Below are positions 20,759 through 63,921 of a stretch of DNA of 64,000 nucleotides, one piece after another. Source of the DNA: Agrobacterium cucumeris (GTDB taxonomy: Bacteria > Pseudomonadota > Alphaproteobacteria > Rhizobiales > Rhizobiaceae); the NCBI RefSeq assembly GCF_030036535.1, contig NZ_CP080388.1, positions 62,001 through 126,000 on the forward strand, read 5' to 3'. Within the stretch, counting starts at the first letter, position 1; every line of letters starts with the position of its first letter. The notes below the pieces were generated by a model. That model saw nothing but the letters and a program-made list of their open reading frames with translations. It ran no database searches and was not told the origin of the DNA. Both the position numbers and the translations under genes were made by a program.

Positions 20759-22111
20759 CTATTGCCTTACCTCGCGCGCGAGCCAGCGCTGCAGGAACAG
20801 GCCGCCCTTTATGGTTTCCTCGATAATCAGCGCCCACCATACGCCCGTCACTCCGAGATCGAGGAACGAGCAGAAAAACCAGGCCATAGGAAGGCCGAGC
20901 CCCCATGTCACGGTCAGGCTGACCAAAACCGGCCAGCGGACATCTCCGACAGCCCGCAGCGATTGAAACAGGATCGTGTTGAATGCAAATCCGGGCTGAA
21001 TGAATATCGTCAGAAACAGCAGGCTGCCGACCAATTCGATGATCGCCGGGTTGTCGGTAAACAACCGGGTATAGGGAACCGAGGCGAGCCAGATCAGCGT
21101 GGCAAGCCCGGTTGTTGCGGCTGCAGCGATGCTTGCCGACCTGAGAGCCTGACGGGTCGCCGCGTCAAGCTTGCGTTCGCCAAACCGGTAACCGATCAGA
21201 ACTTCGTTGCCCTGACTGATTGCCATGACGACAACGATCAGAAAAGCCATGGCAAGCATCGTGTAAGTGCGCCCCAGCACGGCCTCGACGCCGAATCTGG
21301 CGACCAGCCCCAGAAGAATGATCTGGTAAAAACTGTAGGCGATGTAATCGGTCACGCTCGGCAAAGCGATTGCGATCATCCGCCGGGCCATCGCCAGACG
21401 CGCAATCGTATCTGCAAGCGAAAAACGCAGCCCGAGCTTGCGCACCAGAACCGGTGTCAGAACGGCAGCGGTCAGCAGGCGAACGCTCAGGGTGCCGATT
21501 GCCGCGCCCGTCACGCCCATGCCCGGCAGAGGCCCGGCTCCCAGAATGAGAACCCATTCAGCAATGAGATAAAAGGCCGATACCCCCACCCCGAATGCCA
21601 GGATCAGCCTGCTGTGACCGAATGCGCGCAGGCAGGCCAGACCGGCAGCAATGAAGCCGTTAAAGATCATGGCAACCGCGACGATGTTTAGATAGAGGCC
21701 AGCTTCAGCACTCAGCGACGTCGAACCCGCCAGTTGCTCAAGCACGAGGGGTCCCGCAACGATCAATGACAGCCCAAGCGCAAGACCAACGATCGTGTTG
21801 GTCAAAAGCGCGACCGCAACCACCTGCCGCGCCGCCTCCACCTCACCCCGGCCAAGGTGCCGGGAAATGACGATGACGGCGCCGATGCCGATAAGTCCGG
21901 ATAATTCAAACGCTATCAGCAGAACCTGTTTGGCGACAGCAACGGCGGCTGCGGCTTCTGCGGAATAGGCACTTATGATCGCCGTATCGGCCAGATTGAC
22001 GAAGAAGCTCAGCAGCGAATGAAGCAGGAGCGGAAAGCTCAGCTGGAATAAGGTGTGCTTTCCATGCGTGTTGATGTCTTCTGTCCCGGCGGTTGCGGCG
22101 CCCTGTTCCAT
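20759..22111 (-). CDS. MATE-family efflux transporter
   Basis: Inner-membrane antiporter of 450 residues with about twelve hydrophobic helices arranged as two similar halves, typical of the multidrug and toxin extrusion family. Recognisable parts are FPLLLHSLLSFFVNLADTAIISAY in helix 1, ISRHLGRGEVEAARQVV after helix 3, and SQGNEVLIGYRFGERKLDAA in the second half. ATG 22111 (MEQGAATAG) has AGGA eight bases upstream and is preferred; ATG 22135 is possible and adds eight residues. It follows NRPS1 in the same transcription unit, so it most likely exports the cluster product and gives self-protection. Such proteins usually use a sodium or proton gradient. Confidence 0.88.
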   Translation of the reverse strand: MEQGAATAGTEDINTHGKHTLFQLSFPLLLHSLLSFFVNLADTAIISAYSAEAAAAVAVAKQVLLIAFELSGLIGIGAVIVISRHLGRGEVEAARQVVAVALLTNTIVGLALGLSLIVAGPLVLEQLAGSTSLSAEAGLYLNIVAVAMIFNGFIAAGLACLRAFGHSRLILAFGVGVSAFYLIAEWVLILGAGPLPGMGVTGAAIGTLSVRLLTAAVLTPVLVRKLGLRFSLADTIARLAMARRMIAIALPSVTDYIAYSFYQIILLGLVARFGVEAVLGRTYTMLAMAFLIVVVMAISQGNEVLIGYRFGERKLDAATRQALRSASIAAAATTGLATLIWLASVPYTRLFTDNPAIIELVGSLLFLTIFIQPGFAFNTILFQSLRAVGDVRWPVLVSLTVTWGLGLPMAWFFCSFLDLGVTGVWWALIIEETIKGGLFLQRWLAREVRQ

Positions 22112-22140
22112 GGCTGTTATCCTGATCGGCTTCATGGACA

Positions 22141-22162
22141 GGTCAGGCGAAATTGCCTGACC
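22141..22162. promoter_or_regulatory. Hairpin spanning the NRPS1 stop codon
   Basis: GGTCAGGC and GCCTGACC form a perfect eight-base stem around a six-base loop, and the minus-strand TGA of NRPS1 (22145-22143) lies within it. There is no T-run. It could stabilise the mRNA end or modulate ribosome transit into the exporter gene. Confidence 0.45.
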
Positions 22163-25100
22163 TGATGCGCCGCTGCAATTGCCGTTCACGCCCCTGTACC
22201 CTGGTGTCGCTTCGCCCCCGTCCACTCTCCGATGGCTCGGCTTTGCCGTGCTGCAGATCGATTATGTGGCCAGCGAGCGTTTGCAGTGTCGGAAAACGGA
22301 AGAAATCCGTGACTTCCAGCTCGATGCCAAGCGCATCGCGAACCCTCGCGGGCATGGCGACGATCAGCAGGGAATCGCCTCCCAGCTCGAAAAAATTGTC
22401 GCTGACGCCAATATCCTCGCGCTTCAGCATCTGCTGCCAGACGGCGTGCAATGCCTGTTCGACCCGGTTTCCCGGAGAACTGATTTCGGAAACCGCCCTT
22501 TCAGAGCGATCCGGCAGCGGCAGACGCTTGCGATCCACTTTGCCATTCGCATTCATGGGAAACTCTTCCAGAAGAATGAAATGCGACGGCACCATGTAAC
22601 GCGGCAACCGAGCCGAAAGCGCCCTGCTGAGCCGGATACCCATGGCACCCTTGTCGACCTTGCCGGAGCGATCCTCAAGGAGAACATAGGCCAGAAGCTG
22701 CTCCCTGTTCGCATCGAGCAGAACCAGAACCTGATCGACCCCCTCTTCTTCCTGAAGCAGGCTCTCGATTTCTCCAACCTCGATGCGATAGCCGCGCAAT
22801 TTGATCTGGAAGTCGGTTCGTCCGACGAATTCCAGATTGCCGTCCGGCCTGCGCACGACAAGGTCACCTGTTTTGTAAAGGCGGGAGCCCGGCGTCAATG
22901 TCCGGTCATAGGGATCGGGAACGAATTTTTCGGCCGCAAGCGCCGGCCGGTCCCAGTAGCCACGGCTGAGGCTTATGCCACCAATGTGCAGCTCTCCCGG
23001 CACGCCTTCGGGAACGGGATCCATATAGGCGTCGAGGACGAGGAAGGAGGTGTTATCCAGACGGCCACCGATCGGCACCTTGCCGCTTCTGGAATGTGCC
23101 TCCTCCACCAGCAATGCACCAGCCCAGATCGTCGTCTCGGTCGGGCCATAGACATTCCAGAGAGAACCGATCTTTTGGATGAGCCGGCCGGCAAGCTGGG
23201 CATCGAGAGCTTCGCCACCGCATAGTCCGGTGAGGGATTTTTTTCCTTCCCAGCCGCTGTCCAGCAGCATTCTCCATGTGGCGGGGGTCGCCTGAAAATG
23301 CGAAATATCATATTCGCCGATTGTCCTTCCCAGCTTCTCGGGTTGAAGCAAAAGGTCCGGTTCGCGCATGACGGCCGTGGCGCCGACGCTCAATGGCCAG
23401 AGCATTTCCAGAACGGAGATGTCGAATGCCGGCGTCGTCACCGAGAGCATCCGATCTCCAGCCCCTATACCGGGGTGGCGCGCCATGGACTGGAACTGAT
23501 TGAGCAGGCCCGTATGCGTAATCGGCACTCCCTTGGGTCGCCCCGTGCTGCCGCTTGTGTAGAGAATATAGATGTCACTGTTATCAGGCATCGCCGGAAG
23601 CCGGGCATCCGGCTGATCTTCAAGATGATGAACAGGATCGATGCAGGCAATGCCAGGGAAAAGCCCCGCATTGTCAGTCAGCACCAGAACCGCTGCGGCA
23701 TCCTCCAGCACGTAACCGATCCTGTCTGCCGGGTGGCGCGGATCGATCGGAACATAGACCGCGCCGGCCTTTATGATCGCAAGGAAAGATATGATGCAGC
23801 TCGCCTGCCCCGGCAGCGAAACCGCCACGCGCATTCCCGGTTTCACTGGCCGGTCCAGTGTCAGAAGCGCTCTTGCGAGATTATTCGACGCCTCTTCGAG
23901 CTGACTATATGTCCAGCTCCTGTCCAGGCATTCAATGGCAATCTTTTCGGGATGGAGACGTGCCGCACCGCTTATCATGTCGTGCACCCCCTTGACCGGG
24001 AGAGGCCGCGCCACGAGCGCGCCCGCCGACAGAAGACCCTCACGCTCGCCGACGGAGATATATTCGAAGGTCGGTAAAAGCGCGTCGGGGGAAGCAACGA
24101 CCGACCGCAGCAGGTTTTCAAAATGCTCCAGCTGCCGCTCCATTCGCACCGCCTCGAATCGGCCGGACCGATACTCGACGGTGACGAGCGCGCCCGATGC
24201 GCGCTCCATGATCATCCAGCTCATGTCGAGCTTTGCTTCCGCGACCGGTATCGCTTCCTGCCTCACCCGCAGGCTGGCATTGCCCAGATCGAAGCCCTGC
24301 GCATTCTGCTGCCTGTAGCCCTGGGTCTGGACCTGAAAGGAAATCTGGAATGGCGAATTTTCCACCCCTTCGCGGTTGCTGCCCAGCACATCCATCAACT
24401 CCGCAAAGGGATAGTCCTGATGTTCCAGCGCGTTGGCGAAATCTTCCTGTATGCGTCTCGCCCAGTCCCGGAATGACATGGCCGGGCTGAGATCATTGCG
24501 CAACACGATCGTATTGGTGAACAGGCCAATCAATCCTGCCAAATCGGGATCGCTCCGACCGGCAACGGGGACGCATACGGCAAGGTCACGGCGACCGGTA
24601 TAGCGATGGTGCAAAAGCTGGAAAACGGCGGCAAACACCACAAAGGTCGTCGTACCGAGCCTGGCGGCCAGAGCAGACACTTCCGCCATCAGATCCTGCG
24701 AAATCTCCTTCACCAGCGTTTCGCTGGCCATGTCAGCCGTTTCGTGGCGGGGATAGTCGGCCGGAAACTCCTGCGGCTCGAGATTTTGCAGCCGGTTGAC
24801 CCAGTATTGTTTTTGCCGCTCGTAATCCTTTGTGCCGGACCATTTTTGCCTCGCGCGGACAAAGTCGCCATAGGATTGCGGCAAGGGATCGAGGGCCGGT
24901 TCCTGACCGTTCGCCACAGCAGCGTAACACAACGAAAATTCACGCATGAGAATGCCGCGCGACCATCCGTCGGCAACCGTATGATGAAAGACGAACACAA
25001 GAATATGCTCGTTTTCTCCAAGCTGCAGCAGATGCGTGCGCATCAGCGGCGCCTTGGACAAATCGAAAGGGGTGCGGGCGATCCGGCCTATCGCATCGTC

Positions 25101-25526
25101 ACAATCGGAAGCAGACATGTTCCGGCAATCGGAAACGACCAGTTCGGGCGCCATACTGCCGTGAACCTGCTGCCACGGCCTTCCTTCTTCGAGCGGAAAC
25201 GCCGTGCGCAACGGCTCGTGCCGCGCGACGAGAATTTGAAGCGTGCGGATGATGGCGTCATGGTCCAGCGGGCCATCAATATGCCACCTGAACGGAATGA
25301 CATAGGCCGAACTATCAGGGTAGATCTTCTGCTGCAGCCAGAAATGCATCTGCGATGACGTCAGCGGCAATCGCCCGGCAGCCCCGGTAGCGCCGTCGTC
25401 GGGAGCAACATCCTGCCAGGACATGCCACGTGATTCAAGCTGCGAGCGCAGCCGTGCCCGCTGCTCCGGGTCAAGATTTGCGATGCGGTTACGCAATAGA
25501 GCAATCGTCTCGGCATTCGACATCAT
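22143..25526 (-). CDS. NRPS1: C-A(Gly predicted)-T
   Basis: Single-module nonribosomal peptide synthetase of 1127 residues. A short N-terminal docking helix (LDPEQRARLRSQLESRG) precedes the condensation domain, whose catalytic HHTVADGWS is at about residue 181. The adenylation domain has ILYTSGSTGRPKG and KTGDLVVRRPDG. Aligning FDISVLEM, HFQATPATW, GLCGGE and NVYGPTETTIW by eye to the GrsA positions gives the code DILQLGVIWK. That is one change from the glycine code I remember (DILQLGLIWK), so glycine is predicted. A carrier domain with LGGDSLL ends the protein. ATG 25526 is chosen for the AAGGA six bases upstream, ten bases after the monooxygenase stop. It would add glycine to the acyl chain from the upstream proteins. 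Confidence 0.9.
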   Translation of the reverse strand: MMSNAETIALLRNRIANLDPEQRARLRSQLESRGMSWQDVAPDDGATGAAGRLPLTSSQMHFWLQQKIYPDSSAYVIPFRWHIDGPLDHDAIIRTLQILVARHEPLRTAFPLEEGRPWQQVHGSMAPELVVSDCRNMSASDCDDAIGRIARTPFDLSKAPLMRTHLLQLGENEHILVFVFHHTVADGWSRGILMREFSLCYAAVANGQEPALDPLPQSYGDFVRARQKWSGTKDYERQKQYWVNRLQNLEPQEFPADYPRHETADMASETLVKEISQDLMAEVSALAARLGTTTFVVFAAVFQLLHHRYTGRRDLAVCVPVAGRSDPDLAGLIGLFTNTIVLRNDLSPAMSFRDWARRIQEDFANALEHQDYPFAELMDVLGSNREGVENSPFQISFQVQTQGYRQQNAQGFDLGNASLRVRQEAIPVAEAKLDMSWMIMERASGALVTVEYRSGRFEAVRMERQLEHFENLLRSVVASPDALLPTFEYISVGEREGLLSAGALVARPLPVKGVHDMISGAARLHPEKIAIECLDRSWTYSQLEEASNNLARALLTLDRPVKPGMRVAVSLPGQASCIISFLAIIKAGAVYVPIDPRHPADRIGYVLEDAAAVLVLTDNAGLFPGIACIDPVHHLEDQPDARLPAMPDNSDIYILYTSGSTGRPKGVPITHTGLLNQFQSMARHPGIGAGDRMLSVTTPAFDISVLEMLWPLSVGATAVMREPDLLLQPEKLGRTIGEYDISHFQATPATWRMLLDSGWEGKKSLTGLCGGEALDAQLAGRLIQKIGSLWNVYGPTETTIWAGALLVEEAHSRSGKVPIGGRLDNTSFLVLDAYMDPVPEGVPGELHIGGISLSRGYWDRPALAAEKFVPDPYDRTLTPGSRLYKTGDLVVRRPDGNLEFVGRTDFQIKLRGYRIEVGEIESLLQEEEGVDQVLVLLDANREQLLAYVLLEDRSGKVDKGAMGIRLSRALSARLPRYMVPSHFILLEEFPMNANGKVDRKRLPLPDRSERAVSEISSPGNRVEQALHAVWQQMLKREDIGVSDNFFELGGDSLLIVAMPARVRDALGIELEVTDFFRFPTLQTLAGHIIDLQHGKAEPSESGRGRSDTRVQGRERQLQRRIRSGNFA

Positions 25527-25536
25527 CGCAAATCCT

Positions 25537-26604
25537 TCAGACCGCTCTGGCAACACGAACCGGCGGGCGGTTCGCTTCCACGAGTTTCAGCAGAAATGGC
25601 AGGCTGCCCATGACGAGGTCGTAATCCTGAACGAAATCGATCAAGCAGGCGATTTCATCGACGCCCATTTCCGCCAATGTATCCACCGTCGACTGGCAGC
25701 TTTCCGGCGTGCCGATCAGCGACCTGCCTTTCATGAAACCCTCGATGCCGAACTCGATCAGGCTGTCGAGGTCGTCATCGCTGAAATTATCGAGCGTAAT
25801 GTCGACACCCATGCTCCGCCCAAGGCCTTCGAGAAGATGATAATGGGTGCGAAGATAATCTCCGAAAGGTTTGGAAACATTTGATTTTACCTTACCGGTA
25901 TCATCGCCCAAAAATGTGTGGACCATCATGCTGACGGTTCCCGCCGCCGGATCATGCCCATGTTTTTCCCGTGACTTGCGGTAGGCCTCGATCTTTGGCG
26001 CAAGCGACTCCGTCGTCTCACCAAGCAGGGCCGTCAGAACATTGAGGCCGCGGCGGCCTGCTTCGATGAAAGTCTCCGTGGACTGGCATGCAACCCAGAA
26101 GGGGATGCGCGACTGCACGGGCCGCGGCAGGGTTTTTGCGTCAACGATGTTACCGTCCGCATCCTCGAATGCGACCGCCTCACCGGCGAGAAGACGGCTG
26201 ATCTGCTCATAAGAGCGCCACATGGTGCTGCGGCGGTTCCCGTGCGGTTCCTTCGAGAAGACGAATTCGTCTTTCGTCCAGCCGGCCGCTATCGCGATGC
26301 CTGCCCTGCCGCCGGACAGATTGTCGACGACCGCCCATTCCTCCGCCACGCGGGCAGGATGATGCAGGGCGGCAACGACGCTGCCGGCCCTCAGCTGTAC
26401 CTTGCGCGTGACCATCGCCAATGCGGCACTGACGATCGAGGGATTGGGGTAGAGGCCCCCAAATGCGTGGAAATGCCGTTCCGGCACCCACAGTGCCTCC
26501 AGGTCATTCGCATCCGCAAACTGCGCGCTGTCCATCAACAGGCGGTAGTTTTCCTGACCCGGACGCGACCCGTCACCGTCAAAATAAAAAAGGCTGAATT
26601 TCAT
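25537..26604 (-). CDS. Free-standing luciferase-like flavin monooxygenase of PKS/NRPS clusters
   Basis: FMN-dependent oxygenase of 355 residues with the (beta/alpha)8 luciferase-like fold. It opens MKFSLFYFDGDG and contains ALWVPERHFHAFGG, ARVAEEWAVVDNLSGGRAGI and a C-terminal LIGTPESC. This set resembles the MupA/Atu3671-type oxygenases found in, or next to, megasynthases, where they oxidise carrier-bound intermediates. It is encoded between PKS1 and NRPS1, so hydroxylation or another oxidation of the PKS1 product before glycine is added is the simplest idea. A separate flavin reductase would be needed and is not seen here. Confidence 0.87.
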   Translation of the reverse strand: MKFSLFYFDGDGSRPGQENYRLLMDSAQFADANDLEALWVPERHFHAFGGLYPNPSIVSAALAMVTRKVQLRAGSVVAALHHPARVAEEWAVVDNLSGGRAGIAIAAGWTKDEFVFSKEPHGNRRSTMWRSYEQISRLLAGEAVAFEDADGNIVDAKTLPRPVQSRIPFWVACQSTETFIEAGRRGLNVLTALLGETTESLAPKIEAYRKSREKHGHDPAAGTVSMMVHTFLGDDTGKVKSNVSKPFGDYLRTHYHLLEGLGRSMGVDITLDNFSDDDLDSLIEFGIEGFMKGRSLIGTPESCQSTVDTLAEMGVDEIACLIDFVQDYDLVMGSLPFLLKLVEANRPPVRVARAV

Positions 26605-26643
26605 CAGAATGATCCCGATTGTGTGTGAGCGTTATCGGCGTCT

Positions 26644-29600
26644 TCAACGCCCGGCCTCGACGTCATCAAGCATCGAGGCAAGCATATCCGCCTCATGGTT
26701 GCGGGCGTCGAGACCCTCCTGAATGACCCTGGCGAGGCCGGCGGCCGTTGGTGCGTCGAAAAGCAGGGCCCGCATTGGGATTTCGACGTCGAAGCGCTTT
26801 CGAAGCCGGGCGACGACCTGGATGGCGAGCAGCGAATGCCCGCCGAGTTCGAAGAAATTATCGGCAACGCCGATACCATTTATCCCGAGGAGCTCCGCCA
26901 TGATGGCGACGACTTCTTCCTCAAGCGGCCCCTGCGGCGCGGCATAGGCGGCCGACACCCCGCTGCGGGCGGATTTCTGGCCGTTCACCGTGGCGTCGTC
27001 GGAACCCTGGACGTCCGCTGCCGGACGGTTTTCGAGATCATAGGGCGTGACGACGATTGACGCCGGCGAAGCCTGCGAAAGCACCAGCGCCGTGACCTGC
27101 CAGACCTCCTCAGGGGTTATTTCCCGATGGGCCGCATGGCCGGCCTCCGTCGCGTGAACCGATGCGCAGGCATCCCAGTTGACGGATTTCCAGAGCGGAC
27201 CGGACGCGTGCCCTTTTGCGGAGACGAAAGCATCCAGATAGGCATTTTCCGCGGCGTATCGGCCAAGGCCTTTGCCGCCAACGATTGATGATAGCGACGA
27301 CTGGACAAGCACGAAAATGTCGCTGCGCTGTCCAAGAACACGATCAAGGGCGTCAATGGTACCGGATTTTACGGTCTGAAGGCTTTTGGCGTCGAAACTT
27401 TCATTGCCGAGCAGCCCGAAATACTGGTCACCCATCGCGGCTGTGTGGAAAACACCCTTCACGGTGCCGAGGCTTTCTTCTCCCTCCTCCAGTACGGAGC
27501 GAAGCCATTTCGCCTCACTGACATCCCCCGAGAAGAGAAGATAGTCCTTGCCAGGGGTTCCGAGCGATCTGAGCGTCTGGATGAAAAGGCTGACCGGATG
27601 ACGGGGGCTGTGAGATGCAAGCCAGCGCTCCCAGTCCGGCACCAGCGGAATTCCCGCACGACCCGCCAGAATGACTTTTGCTCCAGCTTTGATGAGCGCG
27701 CGGGCATAGACCAGCCCCAGCCCTCCCAGAAGTTCGCCTATGACAAGATAGGTTTCACCGGGCTTTGCAAGGGAACCGGCTTCAACATCGCTGAGTTCGA
27801 CCCGCTCATGGGAGAGCGCAAACAAAATACCGTCGCGAAGGGCATAAATCTGCTCCCCTTCGACCAGAGGCGAAGAGACGACATCCCGAAGGCATCTTGC
27901 GGCATTTACGTCCGGCAGACCCTGAACATCGATACTGCGGCACGATAGTCCCAGCAGTTCCTGGCTCAGCATTCGCGCCAGACCGTTAATCCGGGCTTTG
28001 GCGGGCTGAACGCCATCGGCGGCAAAAATACCGTGCATGGACCTTCCGATGAATGTCACATCCGGACGCTGGTTGCCAGCGGCAAGCGTTCTGGCAAGAG
28101 CAAGCGCAAAATTCCACGCGGCGTCCGGCAGGTCCGTATCCGCCAAGCCGAAAGCGCTGATGATCTGATCCGGCGTCCAGTTCTTTTTGGCGAGATCGTC
28201 GAACAGGGCAAGGAGATGCTCGGCGCTTGCCGGATCGATCGTATAGGCTTTCTCCGCAGCGCTGAATGTCGCTCCCTCACCCACAAGAACCGCATCGATC
28301 CCGTGCGGAATTTCCGGAAGAGCCGCGCCGAAAACAAGCCAGCGACCTTTGGCGGCTGCCGATACGCCGATTTTCAACGGCCGCGTCTTCCACACCGGCT
28401 GATGGAACCATTCGGCCATCGGTCTGTGGGTTGCGGCAACAGCCGTTTCCCGCCCAACCGTGGGTGGCGCAATCCAGTATGATTGCCGCTCGAAATGATA
28501 ACCCGGCAAACCCACACGGCGGCGCGGCGATCCGTCGTCAAGCGCCTCCCAGCGGACATCGATGCCCGCCAGCCATAGCTGTCCGAACGCCAGCAACGCA
28601 TGGTCGGCAGCGTCGACCGTTCCGGCCGCATCCGGCAGGGATGTTACGATGCGGCAATCATCATTCGCCTGCTGGCGCGCCAGCCTTGACAGCGTCGAGC
28701 CGGGCCCGACCTCCAGCAGAACGGGAGCGGAAAGTTCGAGAAGGTGTTTCATCCCGTCGCTGAAATTGACCGCCCTGCGAAGATGTTCGGTCCAGTATGC
28801 CGGGCTGCGGGCCTCCTCAGCCCGCAGCCAGTTTCCGGAAAGATTGGACATCACATCGATTGCCGGTGCAGAGAGAGCGATGCCATCGAACAGGCCCGCA
28901 AACTCCTCGAGAATCGGCTCCATCGCCGCACTGTGAAACGCATGCGATGTCCTGAGCAGCCGGCAGCCGGCCCCGTCCTTCTCCAGTCGTTCGGCAAACC
29001 GGCGCAGAACCTCCGTGTCGCCAGCAACAACGCAGCTACCCGGGCCATTCACGGCAGCTATTTCCAGCCCCTCATCCAGCCGGGCGCGCAGATCAGCCTC
29101 GGTCAACATGACCGACAACATTCCGCCGGCGGCGCAACCCTGCATCAACCGCCCCCGTGCCAGCACGAGGAACATGGCATCCTTGAGGGAGAACACGCCG
29201 GCGAGGCAGGCGGCGACATATTCGCCAACGCTGTGGCCAATCATGGCCCGCGGCTGCAAACCCTTGTGCATCCACATTCTGGCCAGCGCATATTCGACGG
29301 CAAATAGCGCAGGCTGGGCACGGTCCGTGCGGTCCAGCCCGGTATTGGAGGCATCCGGCCCTGCAAGAAGCAACGCCCGGATTTGAAGATCGTCCGGTAT
29401 CAATGACAGGCATTCATCGAGTGCTGCCCGGAAATGCTCTTCGCGCTCATAGAGTGACCGGGCCATTCCCACATGCTGGCTGCCCTGCCCCGAGAACATG
29501 AATACCAGGCTTGGGTCATGCTGCGGGATCTGGCCTATGGCGTAACCGGGTCCGGAGGCGGCTTTCAGTCTCTCGGCGGCGTCGGATAATGTCGTCGCAA

Positions 29601-31203: not shown

Positions 31204-31244
31204 CGGCGATGGCTCCGATCATCGATTGCATGAAAAGCGTGAGA

Positions 31245-42097: not shown

Positions 42098-42134
42098 CGT
42101 GCGTGTTCAATTTCTAATCCAGCGAGAACTGCAT

Positions 42135-53779: not shown

Positions 53780-53781
53780 AC

Positions 53782-56700
53782 GTGAACACGATGGATATTT
53801 CCCGACTGACCGCAGATGAAAAGCGCCAGCTTCTGCAGCGCATGATGGCCGGACAGCAGGCATCCGAAAAAAAGAACTTCCGCCTGAGCCATGCTCAGGA
53901 ACGTATCTGGTTCGTCGAGCAGATGCAGCCCGGCTCAGGCGCATATTCGATACCTCTGGCCATCAGGCTGAAAGGTCCGCTCGACCGGGACAGGCTGAAG
54001 ACCTGCTTCGATATCGTCGTAGAGCGCCATGAAAGCCTGCGGACGGTTTTTAAGGTGCTTGACGGAGAGCCGTTCCAGGTCATTTCCCCCCGGTCAACGG
54101 CAGACTTCAGTTTTCACCAACCGGGCGATGACGAGACCGCACGCGATGCCGCCATAAGCCGCTTCGCGCGGGAGCCGTTCGAGCTCTCGCAAGGTCCGCT
54201 GTTTCGCGTTGGCCTGTTTTCCGTTGCACCTGACGAGCATATCCTCGTCATGGTCATCCATCACATCATTTCCGACTACGCCTCGTTGCAGATCCTCATC
54301 GACGAGGTCCACAGGCTCTATAGCGCGTCCGGATCTCCTGCCACCGGCCAGCTTCCGGCACTCGATATCCAGTATCGCGACTATGCCGAATGGCAGCGCA
54401 ACGGCACTGCGGAGCTTTCCGGCCAGGTCGATTACTGGCGCGAACAGCTTCGTGATGCACCGCTGCTGCTTCAACTTCCGTTCGATTTCGCCCGGCCGGT
54501 GACGCAGGCGTTTCGCGGCGCCCGGCACAAGTTCCACCTTGGGCCGGAACTCTCCGCCGCCATCAAGGATCTGGCGAAAAGCCGGAAACTGACGGCATTC
54601 ATGGTGCTGCTGGCGGCCTATCAAATTCTGCTCGCCCGCCTTTCGAGATCCGACGACATCTGCATCGGCACGACGGCATCGAACCGCAACAGGGCGCAGA
54701 CCCGCAACCTCATCGGGCTGTTCGTCAACAATCTCGTCATGCGGACGCGTCTGCAACCGAATGACACTTTCGATGCGCTGCTCGAACGGGTTCGGGAGAC
54801 GACGCTTGAAGCCCTTTCGAACCAGGATGTCCCCTTTGAGCAGGTGGTGGATGCGCTGAATGTCGAGCGTGACATCGGCCATAACGCCCTCTTCCAGTCG
54901 ACTTTCGTGCTTCACAACGCCTCGGGTGGAACTTTCGACCTCGGCGATATCAAGGTCACGCCGATCGCGCTCGATTCAGGCGCCTCGCGTTTCGATCTCA
55001 GCCTCGACATGCATGAGGGACGAGGGAGCGAAGGTTTCAGCGGCATTTTCGAGTTCAATACCGAACTTTTCCTGCCTGAGACGGTGGCACGCTTCTCAGA
55101 CTATTTCATGAGACTGCTCGGCGGGCTCGTGTCGAATCCCGGCGGTCGCATTGCCGAAATCGACCTGCTGGACGAGACAGAGCATGCGGCTATAGCGGCT
55201 GCCAACCGGACGACCACCGCCTTTCCATTGAGAGATGTCGCAGCGCTGCTGGAAGATACGGCGAAGGCGCGCGGCTCGTTTGCGGCCGTGCGCTGCGGCG
55301 ACCGGCAATACTCCCATAGTGATATCAATGATGCCGCCAACCGCGTGGCGTCCGGTTTGCGTGATCGCATCGGCAACGGCAAAACCCATCCCCGCATCGC
55401 CATTTGCCTGCCTCGTTTTGAAAACCTCATCATCGCCATCCTCGCGGTGCTGAAACTCGGTGGCCATTATGTGCCTCTCGACCCCGGTCAGCCGGCGGAA
55501 CGGCGCGCGCTCATTCTCGAGGACTGCAGGCCTGACATCATTCTCGTCAGCGAGGCTGACGATGACGCTACGAAAGCGGCATATCCATGCGATTGCATGG
55601 CGATTGAACCTCTGCTGCGCGCAACCGGCTCCTTCAGCAATCCGCACCGAGAGACGTTGCCTGACGATCTGGCCTATATCATCTACACATCGGGTTCGAC
55701 GGGCAGGCCGAAAGGCGTGCCGATCCGACAGAAAAGCCTGGTCAATCTTCTGACCAGCATGGCGAGACGGCCGGGCATGTCTGCGGAAGACCGGTTCCTC
55801 GCCGTCACCACACCGGCCTTCGACATTGCCACCCTCGAGCTTTTGATGCCGCTCATGGTCGGCGGCCTGCTGATCATCGCCGAAGCCGATGATGTCTATG
55901 ACGATATGGCCCTTTCGGAGCTTATCCGGAACCATGACGCGACGATGATGCAGGCAACCCCCGCGACATGGCGACTGATGGCAGATGCCGACTGGAAGGC
56001 TCCGGCGGGTTTCAGGATGCTTTGCGGCGGCGAGGCGCTCGAGCCGGGCCTTGCCCGCCGCCTGCTGGAGACCGGTGGCGAATTGTGGAACCTCTACGGC
56101 CCGACCGAAACGACGATCTGGTCCACCTGCACTCGCATAACCCCCGAACATCTGGAACTCCCTGCCCTGCCGATCGGCGAGCCGATCGCCAACACGCAGC
56201 TGCATTTGCTCGATGACGCGCTTATGCCGGTGCCCGCAGGCGTTGTCGGAGAACTGTATATCGGTGGCGAAGGTCTGAGCCCAGGCTATTTCAACCGGGA
56301 CGATCTGACGTCGCGCGCATTCGTTCAAGGCCCAGCCGCAGGCCCGAACGGTCGGCCTGAAACGTCAAGGCTATACCGAACCGGTGACCTGATGCGGCGT
56401 TCCGCCGCCGGGCACCTTCTTTATGTCGGCCGCGCCGATTTTCAGGTCAAGCTTCGCGGTTTCCGCATCGAACTCAGCGAGATCGAGGCGATCCTTGCCT
56501 CGCAGCCATCCATCGAGCAGGCCGTCGTTACCCTTTGGCAGGATGAGGAAGGCTCGGGCACCCTCGTCGCCTATTGCCGCCGTGGGACTGGCGTGGTGGA
56601 CGAGGAAGCGATCCGCACAGCGCTCGCGTCACAGCTTCCCTCCTACATGCTTCCCTCAGCCTATGTCTGGATGGACAGTTTTCCATTAAACGCCAATGGC

Positions 56701-59700
56701 AAGATCGATCGCAAGCGACTTGAGCGACCGAAACAGATAATCTCGTCAGCCGCCTATGCCGCTCCGCGCGACGGCACCGAGCAGATGGTTGCGGCCATAT
56801 GGCGTGAATTGCTCGGCGCCGAAAAGATCGGCCGCGACGACAATTTTTTCACGGTTGGCGGCCATTCCCTGCTGGCGACGCGGATGCTGGCGCGTTTGCG
56901 GACGTCATTTGCCGTTGACCTGCCGCTGCGCACCATTTTTGAGAAACCCAGACTTGCGGAATTTGCCGGTGCCATCGATGCGCTGGTGGCCATCACCGGA
57001 CGCGGATCGGAAGCGAGTTCATCCGGACTGGCAAAGCGGAACCATACCGGCCGAACACCGCTATCGCATGCACAGAACAGGCAATGGGCGCTGGCGCAGC
57101 TTGAACCGGACAGCCCGCTTTATAATATTCCGTTTGCCCTGAAGATCAGGGGACCGCTCGATTTCGCAATTCTCTCGCATGCGCTGGAACTGACGGCGCA
57201 GAGACAGGATATCCTGCGCGGCCGGTTCGTCTCCGTCGATGGCAAGCCATTCGTCGAGACTGACCCCGAGATGATATTCCGGATCATGCCGGAAGAGATC
57301 GGCGAGAGGGAACTCGAGGCTGCCCTGCTCGATTGCGCGCGCCGGCCATTCGATCTTGCCGTTGCGCCGCTGCTGCGCATTCACGCCTTCCGCACCGGCC
57401 CGCAGGACCATGTTCTGCTTTTCATATTGCACCACATCATCGGTGACGCCCTTTCAGCGGAAATTCTGCTCAACGACGTTGCCGAGTTTTACGGGTCCCT
57501 CTTAAAGAAAACCGCACCGCCAAGCGGGGCGCTGCCGCTGCAATATGCGGATTTTGCAATCTGGCAGCGGGAACAGGACACGAAGGACGAGGTCGATTAC
57601 TGGCATAAAACGCTTGCCGGCGCTCCGCCGCTGCTGGAGTTGCCGACGGATTTTGTGCGGCCCGCCATACAGGGCTTCTCAGGTGACAGCATTCGCTTTT
57701 CGCTCGACGCAGTTTTGCTCGCAGGATTGCGAAAACTCTGCGACCGCGAAGGCGCTACCCTATTCATGGGAATGCTGACGGCGTTCTCGACGCTGCTCCA
57801 GCGCGCCAGCGGCATGCGCGATATCGTCATCGGGACACCGGTATCCGAGCGGTTCCACCCCGATCTGGAAAACATCATCGGGATGTTTGCCAATACGCTG
57901 GCGATCCGATTGCAGACCCAGGGCGGTGAGAGCTTCAATAACGCACTGAAGGCAACCCGCGACACGGCATTAAGCGCTTTCGCCAACCAGGCCGCGCCGT
58001 TTGAGAAAGTGGTTGATGCGCTCTCACTACCCCGGACATGGAGCCACAACCCGCTGTTCCAGGCCATGCTCGTCTCGACCGTCGAAACCCGGCGTGAAGC
58101 CATTTCGCTTGCCGGCATGGATTGGGAAAGACTGGTGCTTCCCGATACGTCGTCGCGTGTGGACCTGACATTGTTCATCCATGAAACGGCGCACGAACTT
58201 TCATGCCGTCTGGAATATCGCAGCGATCTTTTCCGCCGCTCAACCATGGAATCTCTTGGTGATGCGCTGGTCGCCCTGCTTGAAAAGATTGTCGAACATC
58301 CTGATGTGCCACTCGACAGGCTCTCCCTGCTGTCGGGCAGCCAGCAGAAAAGGCTGCGGCAATGGAACGAGACGGAGGCGGCATTTCAGCCGCAGCGGCG
58401 CTGCCTGCACGACTTCGTGAAAGCGAGTGCTGACGCCAATCCGCAGGCAATAGCAGTCACTGATCAGGACCAGAGCCTGTCCTATGCCGAACTTGACCGA
58501 AGAGCCGACCGGCTCGCCAGCGGGCTCACCGCAGCCGGCATAAGCAGTGGGAAACGCGTCGGCATTCGCCTTGAAAGAAGCGTGGGGCTGGTGGTCGCCA
58601 TATTGGCCGTTCTTCGCACCGGCGCGGCCTATGTTCCGCTCGACCCGCGTTACCCCGCCGACCGCATAGAATTCATCGCCGCGGACGCCGATCTGGCACT
58701 CATTCTGATCACGACAGAGGATGATATTTCGGCTGCCGGACAGAATTTCCGCTGCATGACGCCGGGTATGGTGGAAAGTCTGGCAGGCGGCGCCGTGCCG
58801 ACGCCAGCGACGTCAGGCTCCGATCTTGCCTATATCATCTATACATCAGGTTCGACCGGCAGGCCGAAGGGTGTGGCCATCGAACATCGCAACGCCGTTG
58901 CTTTCGTGCAATGGTGCCTGCACAGCTTCACCGGCGACCAGCTGTCCGGCGTGCTCGCCTCCACCTCGATCTGCTTCGACCTTTCAATCTTCGAAATATT
59001 TGCGACGCTTGCAGCAGGCGGGCGTATCTTCATGGTGGACGACCTCTTCGCCTTCCCGAGCGCACCGTTTTCAGGTGAAGTGACGCTGGTGAATACGGTT
59101 CCGACGCCGATGTCCGAACTGCTCAAACTCGGGCCCCTGCCGGAGAGCGTGAAAACGGTTTGCCTGGCGGGAGAGCCGCTGCCACGTGAACTTGTCGCGC
59201 GGATATACGCCAACGACCATGTCGAAGGCCTCTATAACCTGTACGGCCCCTCGGAAGACACGACGTATTCGACGGTGGCGCCGGTGCCCAAATCGGGAGA
59301 ATGGTTCGGCATCGGCGTGCCGATTGCCAATACCCGCGCCTATGTGCTCGACGGCGAGTTAAACGAGGTGCCGGTTGGAGTTCCCGGTGAATTGTTCCTG
59401 TCCGGCAGCGGGCTGGCGCGTGGCTACTGGAACCGGCCCGGCCAGACGGCCGAGCGTTTTCTGCCCAACCCTTTTGCCGATTGCGGCGAACACCGCGTCA
59501 TGTATCAGACCGGCGATATCGTGCGCAGACGTGATGATGGTGGCCTCGATTACATGGGGCGCGGCGACCGGCAATTGAAGCTCAACGGTTTTCGTATCGA
59601 ACCGGGTGAAATTGAGGCCGTATTACTTCAGCAGGACGGGGTGCACGAGGCCGTGGCCGGGCTCTGGCGCGACGCTTCCAATCATCCGCGCCTGGCAATG

Positions 59701-61494
59701 TGGATTGCCGGTGATCCTGCCCTCGAAATCGCCAAACTTGTCGCAATTCTCCGGCAACGCCTGCCCGAGCATTTCATTCCCGTGCTTGCGACCAGGCTCG
59801 ACGCGCTTCCACGCCTGCCGAATGGCAAGCTGGATAGATCCGCGCTGCCGGACCCGGCAGCCCATGGCGAGCGCTCCGGTGAAATTGCAAGTCCGCTCAA
59901 TGATCAGGAAGACGTGCTGGCGCAGATATGGCAAGGCTTGCTCGGCTGCGGAGACATCCGGCGAAACGACAATTTCTTCTCGCTCGGCGGCGATTCCATC
60001 CTTGCCATCCAGCTGGTTTCACAGGCCCGCCAGAAGGGGTTGAAGATGACCCCGCGTGACGTGTTCCTCCACCCCACGCTCGCATCGCTCGCAGAAGCGA
60101 CATGCACGGAAAGCACTGCGACGGCCGAAAAGGGTGATGCCGATGGCGAAGCTACGCTCGGCGCGATTCAGCGCTGGCTTCTGGATCAGGACCTGCCCGA
60201 TCTCTCCCACTGGAACCAGGGACTGATCCTGAAACCCACCCGATCTCTCGATCTCGACCGGCTGGAAAAGGCGATCGCCAGAGTTCTCAACGAACATCAG
60301 TCGCTTCGCGCCCGATTTTTGCGTGAAAACGGGCAATGGCAACAGAAATTCGCCCCCATTTCGGCGATGCTCCTCATGCAACGACTGGCCGCCACGGATG
60401 AGAACGACGTCACGGATTTTGCCAGAAAGCTCCACGCCGGCTTCGACCTTGGTGCCGGGCCTCTTTTCGGCGCGATTTTCGCGACATTGCCCGATGGTTC
60501 CGGGCGCCTCATCCTCGCGGCCCATCACCTCATCGTCGATGGCGTGTCCTGGCGAATGATCGTCGCGGATATCGAGCGGCATTATCTGGAAACGGGCACC
60601 ATCCGCTCCGGCGCGGTCGCGGCGGGCAGCTGGAACAGCCGGCTTTCACGGTCGGTGCTTTTCGATGGAGAGGAGGCATATTGGCGCGGCATCTGCGAAG
60701 AAGACGTGCAGGCGCTGCCGCTCGACAACCAGAGTGGCAGCAATACTCAATCGGATGCGGTGACGTACCGCCAGACGATCGATGCCGAAACAACAAGGCA
60801 ACTGCTTCGGGATGTGCCGGAATGCTTCAGCATCGCCTCGAACGAAGTTCTGGTCGCAGCCCTTTATCTGGCGCTGCGGCAATGGAGCGGAAAGCCACGC
60901 CTGCGCCTCGAAATGGAAAGCCATGGCAGACCGCACCTGTTCGAGGATATCGACGTTTCCGAAACGGTGGGGTGGCTGACCGCGCTTTATCCCGTGTTGT
61001 TCGATACGCCCGATGACGCTACGCCAGACCGCCTGCTTCTCGACGTCAAGGACACCCTGCGGCGAATTCCCAATAATGGCGTGGGTTTCGGTGTTCTGAA
61101 ATATCTTCGCAACAGGGGTGAGCATTTGGACTACGGCCAACCGCAGGTCCGCTTCAACTATCTCGGCCAGATGGATGCCATGTTCGGGGCCGACAGCCTG
61201 TTTGCTCCCTCCGGCATAACCTCCGGTCCAATGTACGGCCCCGGCAACCCGCGCGATACGATCCTCGAGATCAATGCCATGGTGGTGCGCGGCGAATTGC
61301 AATTGCAATGGGTCTATGGCGCGCAGCTGCATTCCGGGGACACCATCAAGATGCTGGCCGGCCATTTCCGGGACAATCTCGAAACGCTGATCCAGCATTG
61401 CCTTGATGGTTCAGGTGCTGGTTACAGCATTTCTGATTTCCCGTTGATGGATCTCGGCCAGGACGAACTCGACAATCTGCTAAAGAGCTTGTGA
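53782..61494 (+). CDS. NRPS3: C-A(Gly)-T-C-A(Ala)-T-E
   Basis: Two-module synthetase of 2570 residues. GTG 53782 is chosen because AAGGA lies nine bases upstream; the ATG at 53791 would be too far. First condensation domain HHIISDYAS near 159; adenylation code DILQLGLIWK, glycine; carrier VGGHSLL near 1025. Second condensation domain HHIIGDALS near 1216; code DLFNCALTYK, alanine-like; carrier LGGDSIL near 2068, the form usual before epimerases. Epimerization domain has HHLIVDGVSWRM near 2248, ESHGRPHLF and NYLGQMD, so the second residue should become D. The last residues (LGQDELDNLLKSL) resemble a communication-mediating donor helix for the next protein. In both condensation domains the glycine of HHxxxDG is replaced while the Asp is kept. 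Confidence 0.92.
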   Translation: MNTMDISRLTADEKRQLLQRMMAGQQASEKKNFRLSHAQERIWFVEQMQPGSGAYSIPLAIRLKGPLDRDRLKTCFDIVVERHESLRTVFKVLDGEPFQVISPRSTADFSFHQPGDDETARDAAISRFAREPFELSQGPLFRVGLFSVAPDEHILVMVIHHIISDYASLQILIDEVHRLYSASGSPATGQLPALDIQYRDYAEWQRNGTAELSGQVDYWREQLRDAPLLLQLPFDFARPVTQAFRGARHKFHLGPELSAAIKDLAKSRKLTAFMVLLAAYQILLARLSRSDDICIGTTASNRNRAQTRNLIGLFVNNLVMRTRLQPNDTFDALLERVRETTLEALSNQDVPFEQVVDALNVERDIGHNALFQSTFVLHNASGGTFDLGDIKVTPIALDSGASRFDLSLDMHEGRGSEGFSGIFEFNTELFLPETVARFSDYFMRLLGGLVSNPGGRIAEIDLLDETEHAAIAAANRTTTAFPLRDVAALLEDTAKARGSFAAVRCGDRQYSHSDINDAANRVASGLRDRIGNGKTHPRIAICLPRFENLIIAILAVLKLGGHYVPLDPGQPAERRALILEDCRPDIILVSEADDDATKAAYPCDCMAIEPLLRATGSFSNPHRETLPDDLAYIIYTSGSTGRPKGVPIRQKSLVNLLTSMARRPGMSAEDRFLAVTTPAFDIATLELLMPLMVGGLLIIAEADDVYDDMALSELIRNHDATMMQATPATWRLMADADWKAPAGFRMLCGGEALEPGLARRLLETGGELWNLYGPTETTIWSTCTRITPEHLELPALPIGEPIANTQLHLLDDALMPVPAGVVGELYIGGEGLSPGYFNRDDLTSRAFVQGPAAGPNGRPETSRLYRTGDLMRRSAAGHLLYVGRADFQVKLRGFRIELSEIEAILASQPSIEQAVVTLWQDEEGSGTLVAYCRRGTGVVDEEAIRTALASQLPSYMLPSAYVWMDSFPLNANGKIDRKRLERPKQIISSAAYAAPRDGTEQMVAAIWRELLGAEKIGRDDNFFTVGGHSLLATRMLARLRTSFAVDLPLRTIFEKPRLAEFAGAIDALVAITGRGSEASSSGLAKRNHTGRTPLSHAQNRQWALAQLEPDSPLYNIPFALKIRGPLDFAILSHALELTAQRQDILRGRFVSVDGKPFVETDPEMIFRIMPEEIGERELEAALLDCARRPFDLAVAPLLRIHAFRTGPQDHVLLFILHHIIGDALSAEILLNDVAEFYGSLLKKTAPPSGALPLQYADFAIWQREQDTKDEVDYWHKTLAGAPPLLELPTDFVRPAIQGFSGDSIRFSLDAVLLAGLRKLCDREGATLFMGMLTAFSTLLQRASGMRDIVIGTPVSERFHPDLENIIGMFANTLAIRLQTQGGESFNNALKATRDTALSAFANQAAPFEKVVDALSLPRTWSHNPLFQAMLVSTVETRREAISLAGMDWERLVLPDTSSRVDLTLFIHETAHELSCRLEYRSDLFRRSTMESLGDALVALLEKIVEHPDVPLDRLSLLSGSQQKRLRQWNETEAAFQPQRRCLHDFVKASADANPQAIAVTDQDQSLSYAELDRRADRLASGLTAAGISSGKRVGIRLERSVGLVVAILAVLRTGAAYVPLDPRYPADRIEFIAADADLALILITTEDDISAAGQNFRCMTPGMVESLAGGAVPTPATSGSDLAYIIYTSGSTGRPKGVAIEHRNAVAFVQWCLHSFTGDQLSGVLASTSICFDLSIFEIFATLAAGGRIFMVDDLFAFPSAPFSGEVTLVNTVPTPMSELLKLGPLPESVKTVCLAGEPLPRELVARIYANDHVEGLYNLYGPSEDTTYSTVAPVPKSGEWFGIGVPIANTRAYVLDGELNEVPVGVPGELFLSGSGLARGYWNRPGQTAERFLPNPFADCGEHRVMYQTGDIVRRRDDGGLDYMGRGDRQLKLNGFRIEPGEIEAVLLQQDGVHEAVAGLWRDASNHPRLAMWIAGDPALEIAKLVAILRQRLPEHFIPVLATRLDALPRLPNGKLDRSALPDPAAHGERSGEIASPLNDQEDVLAQIWQGLLGCGDIRRNDNFFSLGGDSILAIQLVSQARQKGLKMTPRDVFLHPTLASLAEATCTESTATAEKGDADGEATLGAIQRWLLDQDLPDLSHWNQGLILKPTRSLDLDRLEKAIARVLNEHQSLRARFLRENGQWQQKFAPISAMLLMQRLAATDENDVTDFARKLHAGFDLGAGPLFGAIFATLPDGSGRLILAAHHLIVDGVSWRMIVADIERHYLETGTIRSGAVAAGSWNSRLSRSVLFDGEEAYWRGICEEDVQALPLDNQSGSNTQSDAVTYRQTIDAETTRQLLRDVPECFSIASNEVLVAALYLALRQWSGKPRLRLEMESHGRPHLFEDIDVSETVGWLTALYPVLFDTPDDATPDRLLLDVKDTLRRIPNNGVGFGVLKYLRNRGEHLDYGQPQVRFNYLGQMDAMFGADSLFAPSGITSGPMYGPGNPRDTILEINAMVVRGELQLQWVYGAQLHSGDTIKMLAGHFRDNLETLIQHCLDGSGAGYSISDFPLMDLGQDELDNLLKSL

Positions 61495-61498
61495 CACA

Positions 61499-63163
61499 AT
61501 GGACAATCGCCCGCTTGAAAGCCGCCGCCGCCCGGCTATCGAAAACATCTATCCGCTGTCACCGATGCAGGAAGGATTGCTGTTCCACTCCATCGCCACG
61601 CCTGACGAAGGCGTCTACGTGCCGCAGATCGTCCTGCAACTGAGAGGCGCGATCGATCCGCAAATCATGCATGATTGCTGGAGCGAGATGGTGTCGCGCC
61701 ATGCCGTTTTGCGCACTACATTTCACTGGGAAGAAAGAGACGAACCCTTTCAGGTGGTCCACAGCGATGCCAGCCTTGCCTTGTCGCAACTGGATTGGTC
61801 CAGTCTTGATGTAGAGGAGCAGCAAAGACGCCTCGGCGCGCTTCTGTCCACCAACCGGCGGCAGGCTTTCGATCTGAAGACCGCTCCGCTGGTCCGCCTG
61901 CAATGGATCGACTATGGCGGGGAAAATTCGCGGCTGGTACTTCAGTATCATCACATTATTCTCGACGGATGGTCGGCGGGCCGCATCGTCGAAGACGCCT
62001 TCAGGACCTATCAGAGACGGTGCGGCTCATCACGTCCGCCGCTACCCGCACCACGGCCCTATGTGGATTATATTGCCTGGCTGAAAAGCAGGAAACGTGA
62101 AGCGACGCGTGCTTTCTGGACGGACTACACTGCCAGGATCGACGGACCGTGCAGGATTACCCGCGACGCTACCGGCGGCGAGGCGGATTTCTCCAGTCAT
62201 AACCTCACCTGCGATCCCGCAGTCTCCACGCAGGCGGCAAAACTGTGCAGGGACATGGGGATTACCCCCAATACCCTGCTGCAGGCCGCACTTGCCATCG
62301 TCATGGCCCGAAAAACCGGCAACAGACATGTCGTCTTCGGTGCGACAACGGCCGGGCGTCCACCAGAACTACAGGGTGTGGAACACATGGTCGGCCTGTT
62401 CATCAACACGTTGCCGGTGTGCATCGACGTTGAAAATGGCAACCTTGCCCCATGGCTGCAGACATTGCAGAAACGCCAGTCCGCCTGTGCGGAGCATGAC
62501 TATCTGCCGTTGCGCGAGATACAGGCCGGGCGGGGCGATCTTTTCGACTGCCTGCTGGTCTTTGAAAACTATCCCGTGCCCCGAGACATATCGGCGGAAG
62601 CGACATTCGCCGTGACCGGCGTCGACGTCGATGAATGGACCCATTATCCCCTCACCCTGTTTGCCGCTGCCGACGCCACGAAGATCGCGATTTCCGCCCG
62701 ATACGACAGGCGCAGCATTGCCGTGCAGGAGGTAGAGGCTTTCCTGAATGAGCTGGGGGCGACAATCGGCGAGATGGCCAGCGGCACTCCAACGGTTCCG
62801 CACGTATCCGATACGGATGCAAGGCCGGTGCGTATCGACAGGCCTGCGCAGCCTTCGGCGGAAACACGCAATGATCAACCCCCTTCCGCTACCGCCTGGA
62901 CGGAAACGGAAGAAAGGATCGCCCGGATATGGGCAGAGGTTCTCAAAGTCGAGGCCGAGCGCAATAGCGATAATTTCTTCGACCTCGGTGGCCATTCGCT
63001 TCTGGCTGCCCGGGTCGTCAACCGGGTGCGGCGAGAATTTGCGATCAATTTTCCCGTAAAAGTCCTGTTCGACCGTCCGGTCCTTGCGGCATTTGCAGCA
63101 TTCATCGACGCGCTGAAAGCAACCGCCGCGCCCGTGGGCGAACACAATGCGATTGAAATATGA
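61499..63163 (+). CDS. NRPS-like C-T protein without adenylation domain
   Basis: A 554-residue protein with one condensation domain (about 15-440, HHIILDGWS near 151) and one carrier domain (LGGHSLLAARVV near 496), joined by a linker of about 45 residues. There is no adenylation domain. The opening IYPLSPMQEGLLFHS marks the DCL type that accepts a D-residue donor, matching the epimerase that ends NRPS3, and the first 15 residues resemble a docking acceptor. Its carrier must be loaded in trans, by the adenylation domain of another cluster protein or an enzyme outside the window, or it takes an unactivated partner. It lies four bases after NRPS3. Confidence 0.9.
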   Translation: MDNRPLESRRRPAIENIYPLSPMQEGLLFHSIATPDEGVYVPQIVLQLRGAIDPQIMHDCWSEMVSRHAVLRTTFHWEERDEPFQVVHSDASLALSQLDWSSLDVEEQQRRLGALLSTNRRQAFDLKTAPLVRLQWIDYGGENSRLVLQYHHIILDGWSAGRIVEDAFRTYQRRCGSSRPPLPAPRPYVDYIAWLKSRKREATRAFWTDYTARIDGPCRITRDATGGEADFSSHNLTCDPAVSTQAAKLCRDMGITPNTLLQAALAIVMARKTGNRHVVFGATTAGRPPELQGVEHMVGLFINTLPVCIDVENGNLAPWLQTLQKRQSACAEHDYLPLREIQAGRGDLFDCLLVFENYPVPRDISAEATFAVTGVDVDEWTHYPLTLFAAADATKIAISARYDRRSIAVQEVEAFLNELGATIGEMASGTPTVPHVSDTDARPVRIDRPAQPSAETRNDQPPSATAWTETEERIARIWAEVLKVEAERNSDNFFDLGGHSLLAARVVNRVRREFAINFPVKVLFDRPVLAAFAAFIDALKATAAPVGEHNAIEI

Positions 63164-63177
63164 TACAAGGACACACA

Positions 63178-63921
63178 ATGACAGTTCGTCCCAGGTTGAT
63201 CTGCCTTCCGCCAGCCGGTGCCGGCCCGAGCCTGTTCCGGTCATGGGTTCATTCTGAGAGCGTTTTTAACGTCACCCCAGTCGCCCTGCCGGGTCGCGAA
63301 GCGCATTTCACCAAGCCGCTGCCGCGCGATATCCAGAGCCTTGCGGAACATGTGGGACACGAAATCTCCGGGCTGCTTCATGCTCCCTATGCCCTGTTCG
63401 GTTACTCCATGGGCGCTGTGGTGGCCTATGAGCTGCTCCGGCACCTCTCCATCCGGGGCCTGCCGCTCCCGGAAGCACTCTACGTTCTGGGCTCGAACGC
63501 GCCCGACCGTGTTCTCGAAGGGCGTGAGCCCATTCACGTCATGACGCGCGAGGATTTTCACCAGTCGCTGGTCGAAATCGGCGGTACGCCGGACGAGATA
63601 TTACGCGACACCGAGGCGATGGCTCTGTTCGAACCCGTTCTGCGCAACGATTTTCGTATTTGCGAGACTTATGAATTTACGCCCCCGCATGTCCCTGTTA
63701 CGCTTCCGGTACATGTATTCGTGGCCGATGCCGACCATCTGGTCAGCTGGAATGCGGCGCGTGCGTGGGAAAGCTGTATCGGTCAGGATGTCACCATGCA
63801 TCGGATCGAAGGGTCGCATATGCTTGCTCCGCAAGCGTTTGCGCACTTCATCGGCAGACTGGGCCAGCTGTGGCAAACCGATGTGATGCAGGCAGGGGCT
63901 GTTTCAGCGAGAGAGGCATGA
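63178..63921 (+). CDS. Type II thioesterase
   Basis: Alpha/beta-hydrolase of 247 residues that typically clears wrong or stalled groups from carrier domains. The nucleophile is Ser77 in GYSMG, the acid is in VADADHL and the histidine in EGSHMLAP; LPPAGAGPSLFRSW is the oxyanion segment. ATG 63178 has AAGGA six bases upstream, giving MTVRPRLICLPPAG; an ATG at 63160 that overlaps the previous stop would add six residues. Because the last synthetase has its own reductase, this enzyme is more likely an editor than the release enzyme. Confidence 0.9.
   Translation: MTVRPRLICLPPAGAGPSLFRSWVHSESVFNVTPVALPGREAHFTKPLPRDIQSLAEHVGHEISGLLHAPYALFGYSMGAVVAYELLRHLSIRGLPLPEALYVLGSNAPDRVLEGREPIHVMTREDFHQSLVEIGGTPDEILRDTEAMALFEPVLRNDFRICETYEFTPPHVPVTLPVHVFVADADHLVSWNAARAWESCIGQDVTMHRIEGSHMLAPQAFAHFIGRLGQLWQTDVMQAGAVSAREA

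Follow-up and report, generated by a model that had tools for sequence, protein, structure and literature searches.

Gene content of the locus

The window analysed here, i.e., a 64,000-nucleotide stretch of Agrobacterium cucumeris (NZ_CP080388.1, positions 62,001–126,000, or G000:C2:62001–126000 in a genome of 5.70 Mb on five contigs), carries a large assembly line of nonribosomal peptide synthetases (NRPSs) and polyketide synthases (PKSs). It is almost certainly the locus for fabrubactin (fbn), here from an Agrobacterium species distinct from A. fabrum, by which a lipopeptide siderophore is made, exported, and re-imported. Scanning of the open reading frames (ORFs) with Pfam revealed six AMP-binding domains plus one fatty-acyl-AMP ligase (FAAL), ten PP-binding domains, and two modules of ketosynthase (KS), acyltransferase (AT), ketoreductase (KR), and acyl carrier protein (ACP) domains. 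These scans confirmed the inventory of an initial annotation of the window, which had listed ten carriers, six adenylation (A) domains, two PKS modules, a FAAL, a cyclization/oxidase (Cy/Ox) pair, an epimerase (E), a terminal reductase, tailoring genes, and an exporter, the epimerase label being positional.

Five genes are read from the minus strand, i.e., a MATE exporter (20759–22225; PF01554, E 2.9e-34), whose true start is probably further in, an NRPS with condensation (C), A, and peptidyl carrier protein (PCP) domains (22143–25556; Gly-like A code DILQLGVIWK), a luciferase-like monooxygenase of the FbnE type (25537–26604; TIGR04020, 477 bits with a cut-off of 244), PKS1 (KS-AT-KR-ACP; 26644–31203), and a FAAL with ACP of the FbnG type (31245–33527). 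The AT domain of PKS1 has an HAFH motif, which we take to be of the malonyl type.

On the plus strand, the series starts with the terminal NRPS (33820–38388), in which a TubC docking domain is followed by C-A-PCP (A code DAPTLGAVNK) and a reductase recognized as an NAD_binding_4 domain. It continues with a SAM methyltransferase (38385–39281; PF13649, E 6.6e-22), a class III aminotransferase (39278–40753; PF00202, E 1e-44), two small ORFs discussed below, and PKS2 (KS-AT-KR-ACP; 42099–46568), whose KR domain scored weakly (32 bits vs. 73 bits for that of PKS1). Next come a 2404-aa NRPS (C-A-PCP-Cy-A/Ox-PCP; 46565–53779; codes DLFNNALTYK for Ala and DLYNMSLIWK for Cys) and a 2570-aa NRPS (C-A-PCP-C-A-PCP-E; 53782–61494; codes DILQLGLIWK for Gly and DLFNCALTYK for Ala). 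In the former, a nitroreductase-type Ox domain is inserted in the second A domain, and the condensation-type domain before it has a Cy-like D-4-D motif; in the latter, the last of three condensation-type domains follows the second carrier, i.e., the position of an epimerase. The series closes with an A-less C-PCP module (61499–63163) and a thioesterase (63160–63921; PF00975, E 2.1e-37) that is type II by its free-standing form. Please note that the Cy and E labels were assigned by position and by motifs, and that the six codes presumably stand, in gene order, for Gly, a Tyr/DOPA-type residue, Ala, Cys, Gly, and Ala, with Tyr/DOPA being proposed from context.

Uptake genes beyond the window and identity of the block

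The window ends 79 bases past the thioesterase gene and contains only the start of an FhuF-like ferric reductase gene (63949–64000, plus strand). The sequence further downstream was read on a 20-kb segment (L009, i.e., C2:125001–145000, where adding 63000 to a position gives the window position), and up to 73121 it encodes this FhuF-like reductase, a TonB receptor, a periplasmic binding protein, two FecCD permeases, an ATPase, an ECF sigma factor (FecI-like by its position before FecR), and FecR. A dedicated TonB receptor and ABC importer, as expected of a siderophore system, are thus present directly after the window. The apparent lack of iron genes, which the initial annotation had taken as an argument against a standard siderophore, arose because the window edge cuts the block before its uptake operon.

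Comparison with other genomes of the genus delimited a conserved block from 18985 (left edge 18979–18985) to 73121, reaching ca. 9 kb beyond the window end. The extent of 20759–63921 given earlier was therefore right for the genes it listed, while the unit itself is larger, and the two small ORFs, the thioesterase gene, and, at the left end, panD and two Rrf2-family regulator genes had not been listed. The block is collinear with that of G006:C2 (88.6% nucleotide identity over 54,172 alignment positions) and of G027 (92.9% over 54,176 positions). The 24 proteins compared between the window and G006 are 82–98% identical, the lowest value belonging to the second FecCD permease, an over-long ORF overlapping the first; the FbnE-type monooxygenase reaches 98%, and the FAAL 93.5%. 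All six adenylation codes, of ten letters each, are identical across the window, G006, and G027, and the compared KS, AT, Cy, and C motifs are the same in all three. In G006, the block is situated on a replicon of 2,075,577 bases, which we take to be the linear chromosome of the fabrubactin producer A. fabrum C58. The TIGR04020 family in turn bears the names of MupA and Atu3671, and a fragment described as spanning Atu3639 to Atu3693, on which the C58 siderophore cluster had been cloned, improved growth of E. coli under iron limitation (PMC4929569).

The collinearity with G006, the shared A codes, the uptake operon, and the FbnL/FbnM-like gene pair together identify the block as a fabrubactin locus. 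The fabrubactin cluster is already known, and the window holds a further copy of it in a sister species, so that the expectation of a product outside the described ones no longer holds. An FbnM-like gene was found in 6 of 39 genomes of the genus, including the source genome and G005, a genome called the same species.

The initial annotation instead proposed a thiazole lipopeptide without siderophore function, beta-aminated at PKS2 and released as an aldehyde or alcohol. The domains on which it is based, including the terminal reductase, are indeed present, but the reading is contradicted by the uptake operon directly downstream and by the 54-kb collinearity with the C58-like locus, and the FbnL/FbnM-like pair also speaks against it. 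We consider it highly improbable and have rejected it. What seemed an orphan cluster thus becomes a known siderophore system, and a window edge can evidently hide the decisive genes.

A putative split tyrosine hydroxylase

Between the aminotransferase and PKS2 genes lie the two small ORFs (41019–41537 and 41534–42097, both plus strand) that putatively encode the FbnL-like and FbnM-like halves of a split heme tyrosine hydroxylase. Neither had a match in our Pfam and NCBIfam scans, and their identity as FbnL and FbnM rests on collinearity with G006. A search with the 186-aa FbnM-like piece retrieved 57 relatives with E-values up to 0.001; every one of them carries PF27188, and several are named siderophore biosynthesis protein. 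FbnM-like genes were also seen in assemblies titled Pedosphaera, Verrucomicrobiales, and Planctomycetaceae (L042, L050, L064, L069), and in many cyanobacteria.

A profile of 28 rows (i.e., the window sequence and 27 of the 57 relatives) matched residues 185–355 of SfmD (3-methyl-L-tyrosine peroxygenase, PDB 6VDP) with an E-value of 3.8e-19. Within it, H99, H138, and C142 of FbnM (numbered without the start Met), which make up a bis-His set with an HxxxC thioether motif, are invariant in all 28 rows and align with H274, H313, and C317, presumably the ligand residues of SfmD. A bis-His ligand set has been described for SfmD (PMC11791213).

The evidence for FbnL is of a different kind. Its profile (16 rows, i.e., the window sequence and 15 of 20 relatives) gave no sequence match to SfmD. 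The top three Foldseek matches of its structural model (pLDDT 80.7) were nevertheless SfmD, at weak E-values of 0.06–0.13, and the alignment to SfmD residues 17–165 was the longest among the best 50 matches, in which ion-channel helix bundles had higher Z-scores. The FbnM model best matched MarE and TDO, with SfmD not among the best 50 matches listed. FbnL and FbnM thus seem to tile SfmD, firmly so for FbnM and tentatively for FbnL. FbnM resembles the C-terminal half of SfmD including its heme ligands, with the difference that SfmD is a single chain and two genes are present here. According to the literature, FbnL and FbnM make DOPA, and this protein pair is the marker of the Dmaq chelator (PMC12971057). 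Our literature search returned no paper linking SfmD with FbnL, FbnM, or Dmaq, although the original fabrubactin paper may do so.

Proposed biosynthesis and mode of action

For the biosynthetic model, the roles of FbnE, FbnG, FbnL, and FbnM were taken from the literature, and that of FbnE is a proposal there as well. The FAAL would activate a fatty acid (C10 in C58), in line with the report that FbnG takes C10:0 in vitro (PMC11837247). The chain would then be extended by PKS1, Gly, PKS2, Ala, Cys (converted to a thiazole by Cy/Ox), Gly, D-Ala, one residue on the A-less C-PCP module, and Tyr or DOPA. The domains and codes support the order set out earlier for this line, i.e., FAAL, PKS1, Gly, PKS2, Ala, Cys with Cy/Ox, Gly, Ala with an E-type domain, A-less C-PCP, and reductive release.

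For FbnE, the proposed products are two alpha-hydroxycarboxylates (PMC12971057); it would oxidise two beta-keto units, which would rearrange to these chelators. The weak KR domain of PKS2 is in line with a beta-keto unit being left for FbnE. FbnL and FbnM would together act as a split SfmD-type heme tyrosine hydroxylase supplying DOPA. Finally, the terminal reductase would free an aldehyde, which the aminotransferase would convert into an amine and the methyltransferase would N,N-dimethylate, before oxidative cyclisation yields Dmaq. Such a fate of the last residue (i.e., Tyr/DOPA that is reduced, aminated, methylated, and cyclised) is most likely, given the gene-level model for anachelin, in which genes 11–15 are assigned to Dmaq under symbols that include Red, MT, AmT, and TyrH (PMC4247773). 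The aminotransferase would accordingly serve Dmaq formation and not PKS2: together with the methyltransferase gene it sits with the FbnL/FbnM-like and reductase genes, which makes the earlier suggestion of beta-amination at PKS2 unlikely. The MATE protein would export the product, and the TonB receptor, binding protein, FecCD permeases with their ATPase, and FhuF would import and reduce its ferric form.

Some points weigh against the fabrubactin assignment. That G006 is C58 rests on the replicon length, together with the consistent position and the gene family name. The product of the source strain, with its thiazole and residue order, is predicted from the genes. The intact-looking KR domain of PKS1 is not explained by the beta-keto route. 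Moreover, the cloned C58 cluster gave no siderophore detectable by high-performance liquid chromatography in E. coli (PMC4929569).

An aspartate decarboxylase gene within the block

Near its left end, the block contains panD (19600–20073, plus strand, start codon uncertain; PF02261, E 1.2e-38), encoding a pyruvoyl-type aspartate 1-decarboxylase that converts Asp into beta-alanine. By eye, an HGS motif was recognized as its processing site, which has been placed at Gly24-Ser25 (PMC7142369). An aspartate decarboxylase gene is rare in the genus (7 of 39 genomes), and lies inside the block in all six fbn-bearing genomes. Only one of the 33 genomes without fbn (G015) has it, as a different copy on another contig that recurs as the second copy in G000 and G005; in G006, the block copy is the single PF02261 match.

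In C58, single and double mutants meant as beta-alanine auxotrophs were all prototrophic according to PMC7142369 (data not shown there), which lists a C58 panD insertion mutant in its strain table, and pantothenate supply therefore poses no evident need for panD. The same source counts a single aspartate decarboxylase each for C58 and A. vitis S4, the latter strain being outside the genomes searched here. Since panD tracks the fbn genes within the genus and a pantothenate need is not evident, the block copy might tentatively be regarded as a siderophore gene, providing beta-alanine as a fabrubactin building block (e.g., for the A-less C-PCP module) rather than for pantothenate. Beta-alanine-containing siderophores have been described from Streptomyces (PMC12305651), and no link between aspartate decarboxylase and siderophores in Agrobacterium appeared in the titles and abstract beginnings among the matches listed in our literature search.

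Two observations speak against a strict need for panD. Strain FY34 does not have it, while the other genes compared are kept. Furthermore, among 18 genomes taken from 67 FbnM-type loci, panD was present in four (i.e., G005, G016, and G037 again, and Methylobrevis, where it is located between the MATE exporter and receptor genes), and 13 others carry FbnM- and FbnE-type genes but no panD. In FY34 (L104, 9826–9949), the two Rrf2 genes have no panD between them, apart from what looks like a short piece of its 3′ end. That the cluster carries its own panD is thus a modest lead.

Regulation

Rrf2-family regulator genes flank panD at 19091–19582 (plus strand; PF02082, E 2.2e-19) and 20106–20627 (minus strand; PF02082, E 1.5e-22), the second scoring only 42 bits with the RirA model (cut-off 193). 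The divergent promoter region at 33528–33819 contains two TGA-N9-TCA boxes (33648–33662 and 33681–33695) that both stay in place in the window, G006, G027, and FY34. This motif was proposed for RirA and is present in 5 of 10 RirA binding peaks in Sinorhizobium fredii (PMC8822346). It is common by itself, with 23 occurrences in the window vs. 13.2 expected (a number attained in 1 of 100 shuffles). The extended TTGA-N9-TCAAG form is found at a single site, where it scores on both strands (two hits vs. 0.35 expected, a count attained in 3 of 100 shuffles). The locus is putatively controlled through RirA-type operators and by the sigma factor/FecR pair.

Genomic location and mobility

Three genomes have this genomic spot without the cluster (L092–L094). 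In G003, the left and right flanks of the window are 154 bases apart. In G015 and G032, they are separated by other DNA of about 7.0 kb and 4.7 kb, respectively, and the G015 site retains short matches to window positions 18937–19089 and 63913–63967. The left flank is located on a different replicon from the block in G006. Moreover, 5 of 72,556 plasmid records, all from Agrobacterium, carry in full both query stretches covering 20700–64000 at ca. 91% identity. The same five also hold the left end from ca. 18996, annotated in four of them as two Rrf2 genes and an aspartate 1-decarboxylase, the fifth having no annotation. The flank comparisons and plasmid matches show that the block stays together and sits in different places. 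Its distribution is patchy, with copies on a replicon of 2.1 Mb (which we take for the linear chromosome of C58) and on plasmids of 0.8–1.0 Mb.

Just left of the block, ca. 100 bases (18787–18896) recur elsewhere in 13 of 39 genus genomes at 74–88% identity, as a dispersed repeat. Rfam gave no match in the window. The source genome has a second siderophore locus (L011, 10046–19139; C2:1745046–1754139) with genes for 2,3-dihydroxybenzoate, i.e., dihydroxybenzoate-AMP ligase, isochorismate synthase, and EntA-type genes beside a 1510-aa NRPS, which we assume is perhaps agrobactin-like.

Comparison with known systems

The anachelin system has the Dmaq gene set in common with the block, i.e., reductase, methyltransferase, aminotransferase, and tyrosine hydroxylase genes (PMC4247773), as well as a D-residue followed by one more residue and then Dmaq. 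However, anachelin has a salicylate starter and Thr-Ser-Ser, whereas a FAAL and Gly/Ala/Cys-type codes are found here, with no salicylate starter genes among the block genes scanned. The chance that the window encodes an anachelin-type siderophore is thus close to negligible.

Fbn-like clusters of Methylobrevis (L108–L110), A. vitis (L111–L114), and Shinella (L115–L118) resemble the block, with luciferase-like monooxygenases at 72–74% and FbnM at 58–70% identity, and with two PKSs, the terminal module, methyltransferase, aminotransferase, C-PCP module, receptor, and permeases in common. The Methylobrevis cluster retains the Ox domain (44%), whereas those of A. vitis and Shinella have no Ox match (best E 0.24 and 1.7, respectively) and an extra NRPS module beside the first, so that their product probably has no thiazole.

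These differences among more distant relatives, and proteins that are 82–98% identical rather than fully so, would fit a new fabrubactin congener with a changed residue or starter in the source strain. Such a congener is nevertheless unlikely, given the identity of the A codes and compared motifs to those of G006 and G027 and the closeness of the FAAL. The cluster of C58 (described in PMC12971057; with G006 taken as C58) remains the nearest known system: it differs by 11% nucleotide divergence and by its genomic place, and agrees in the genes compared, their order and strand, the domain make-up, the six A codes, and the uptake and regulatory genes. Fabrubactins A and B of A. fabrum C58, whose structures were reportedly described by Vinnik et al. 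in 2021, are its products.

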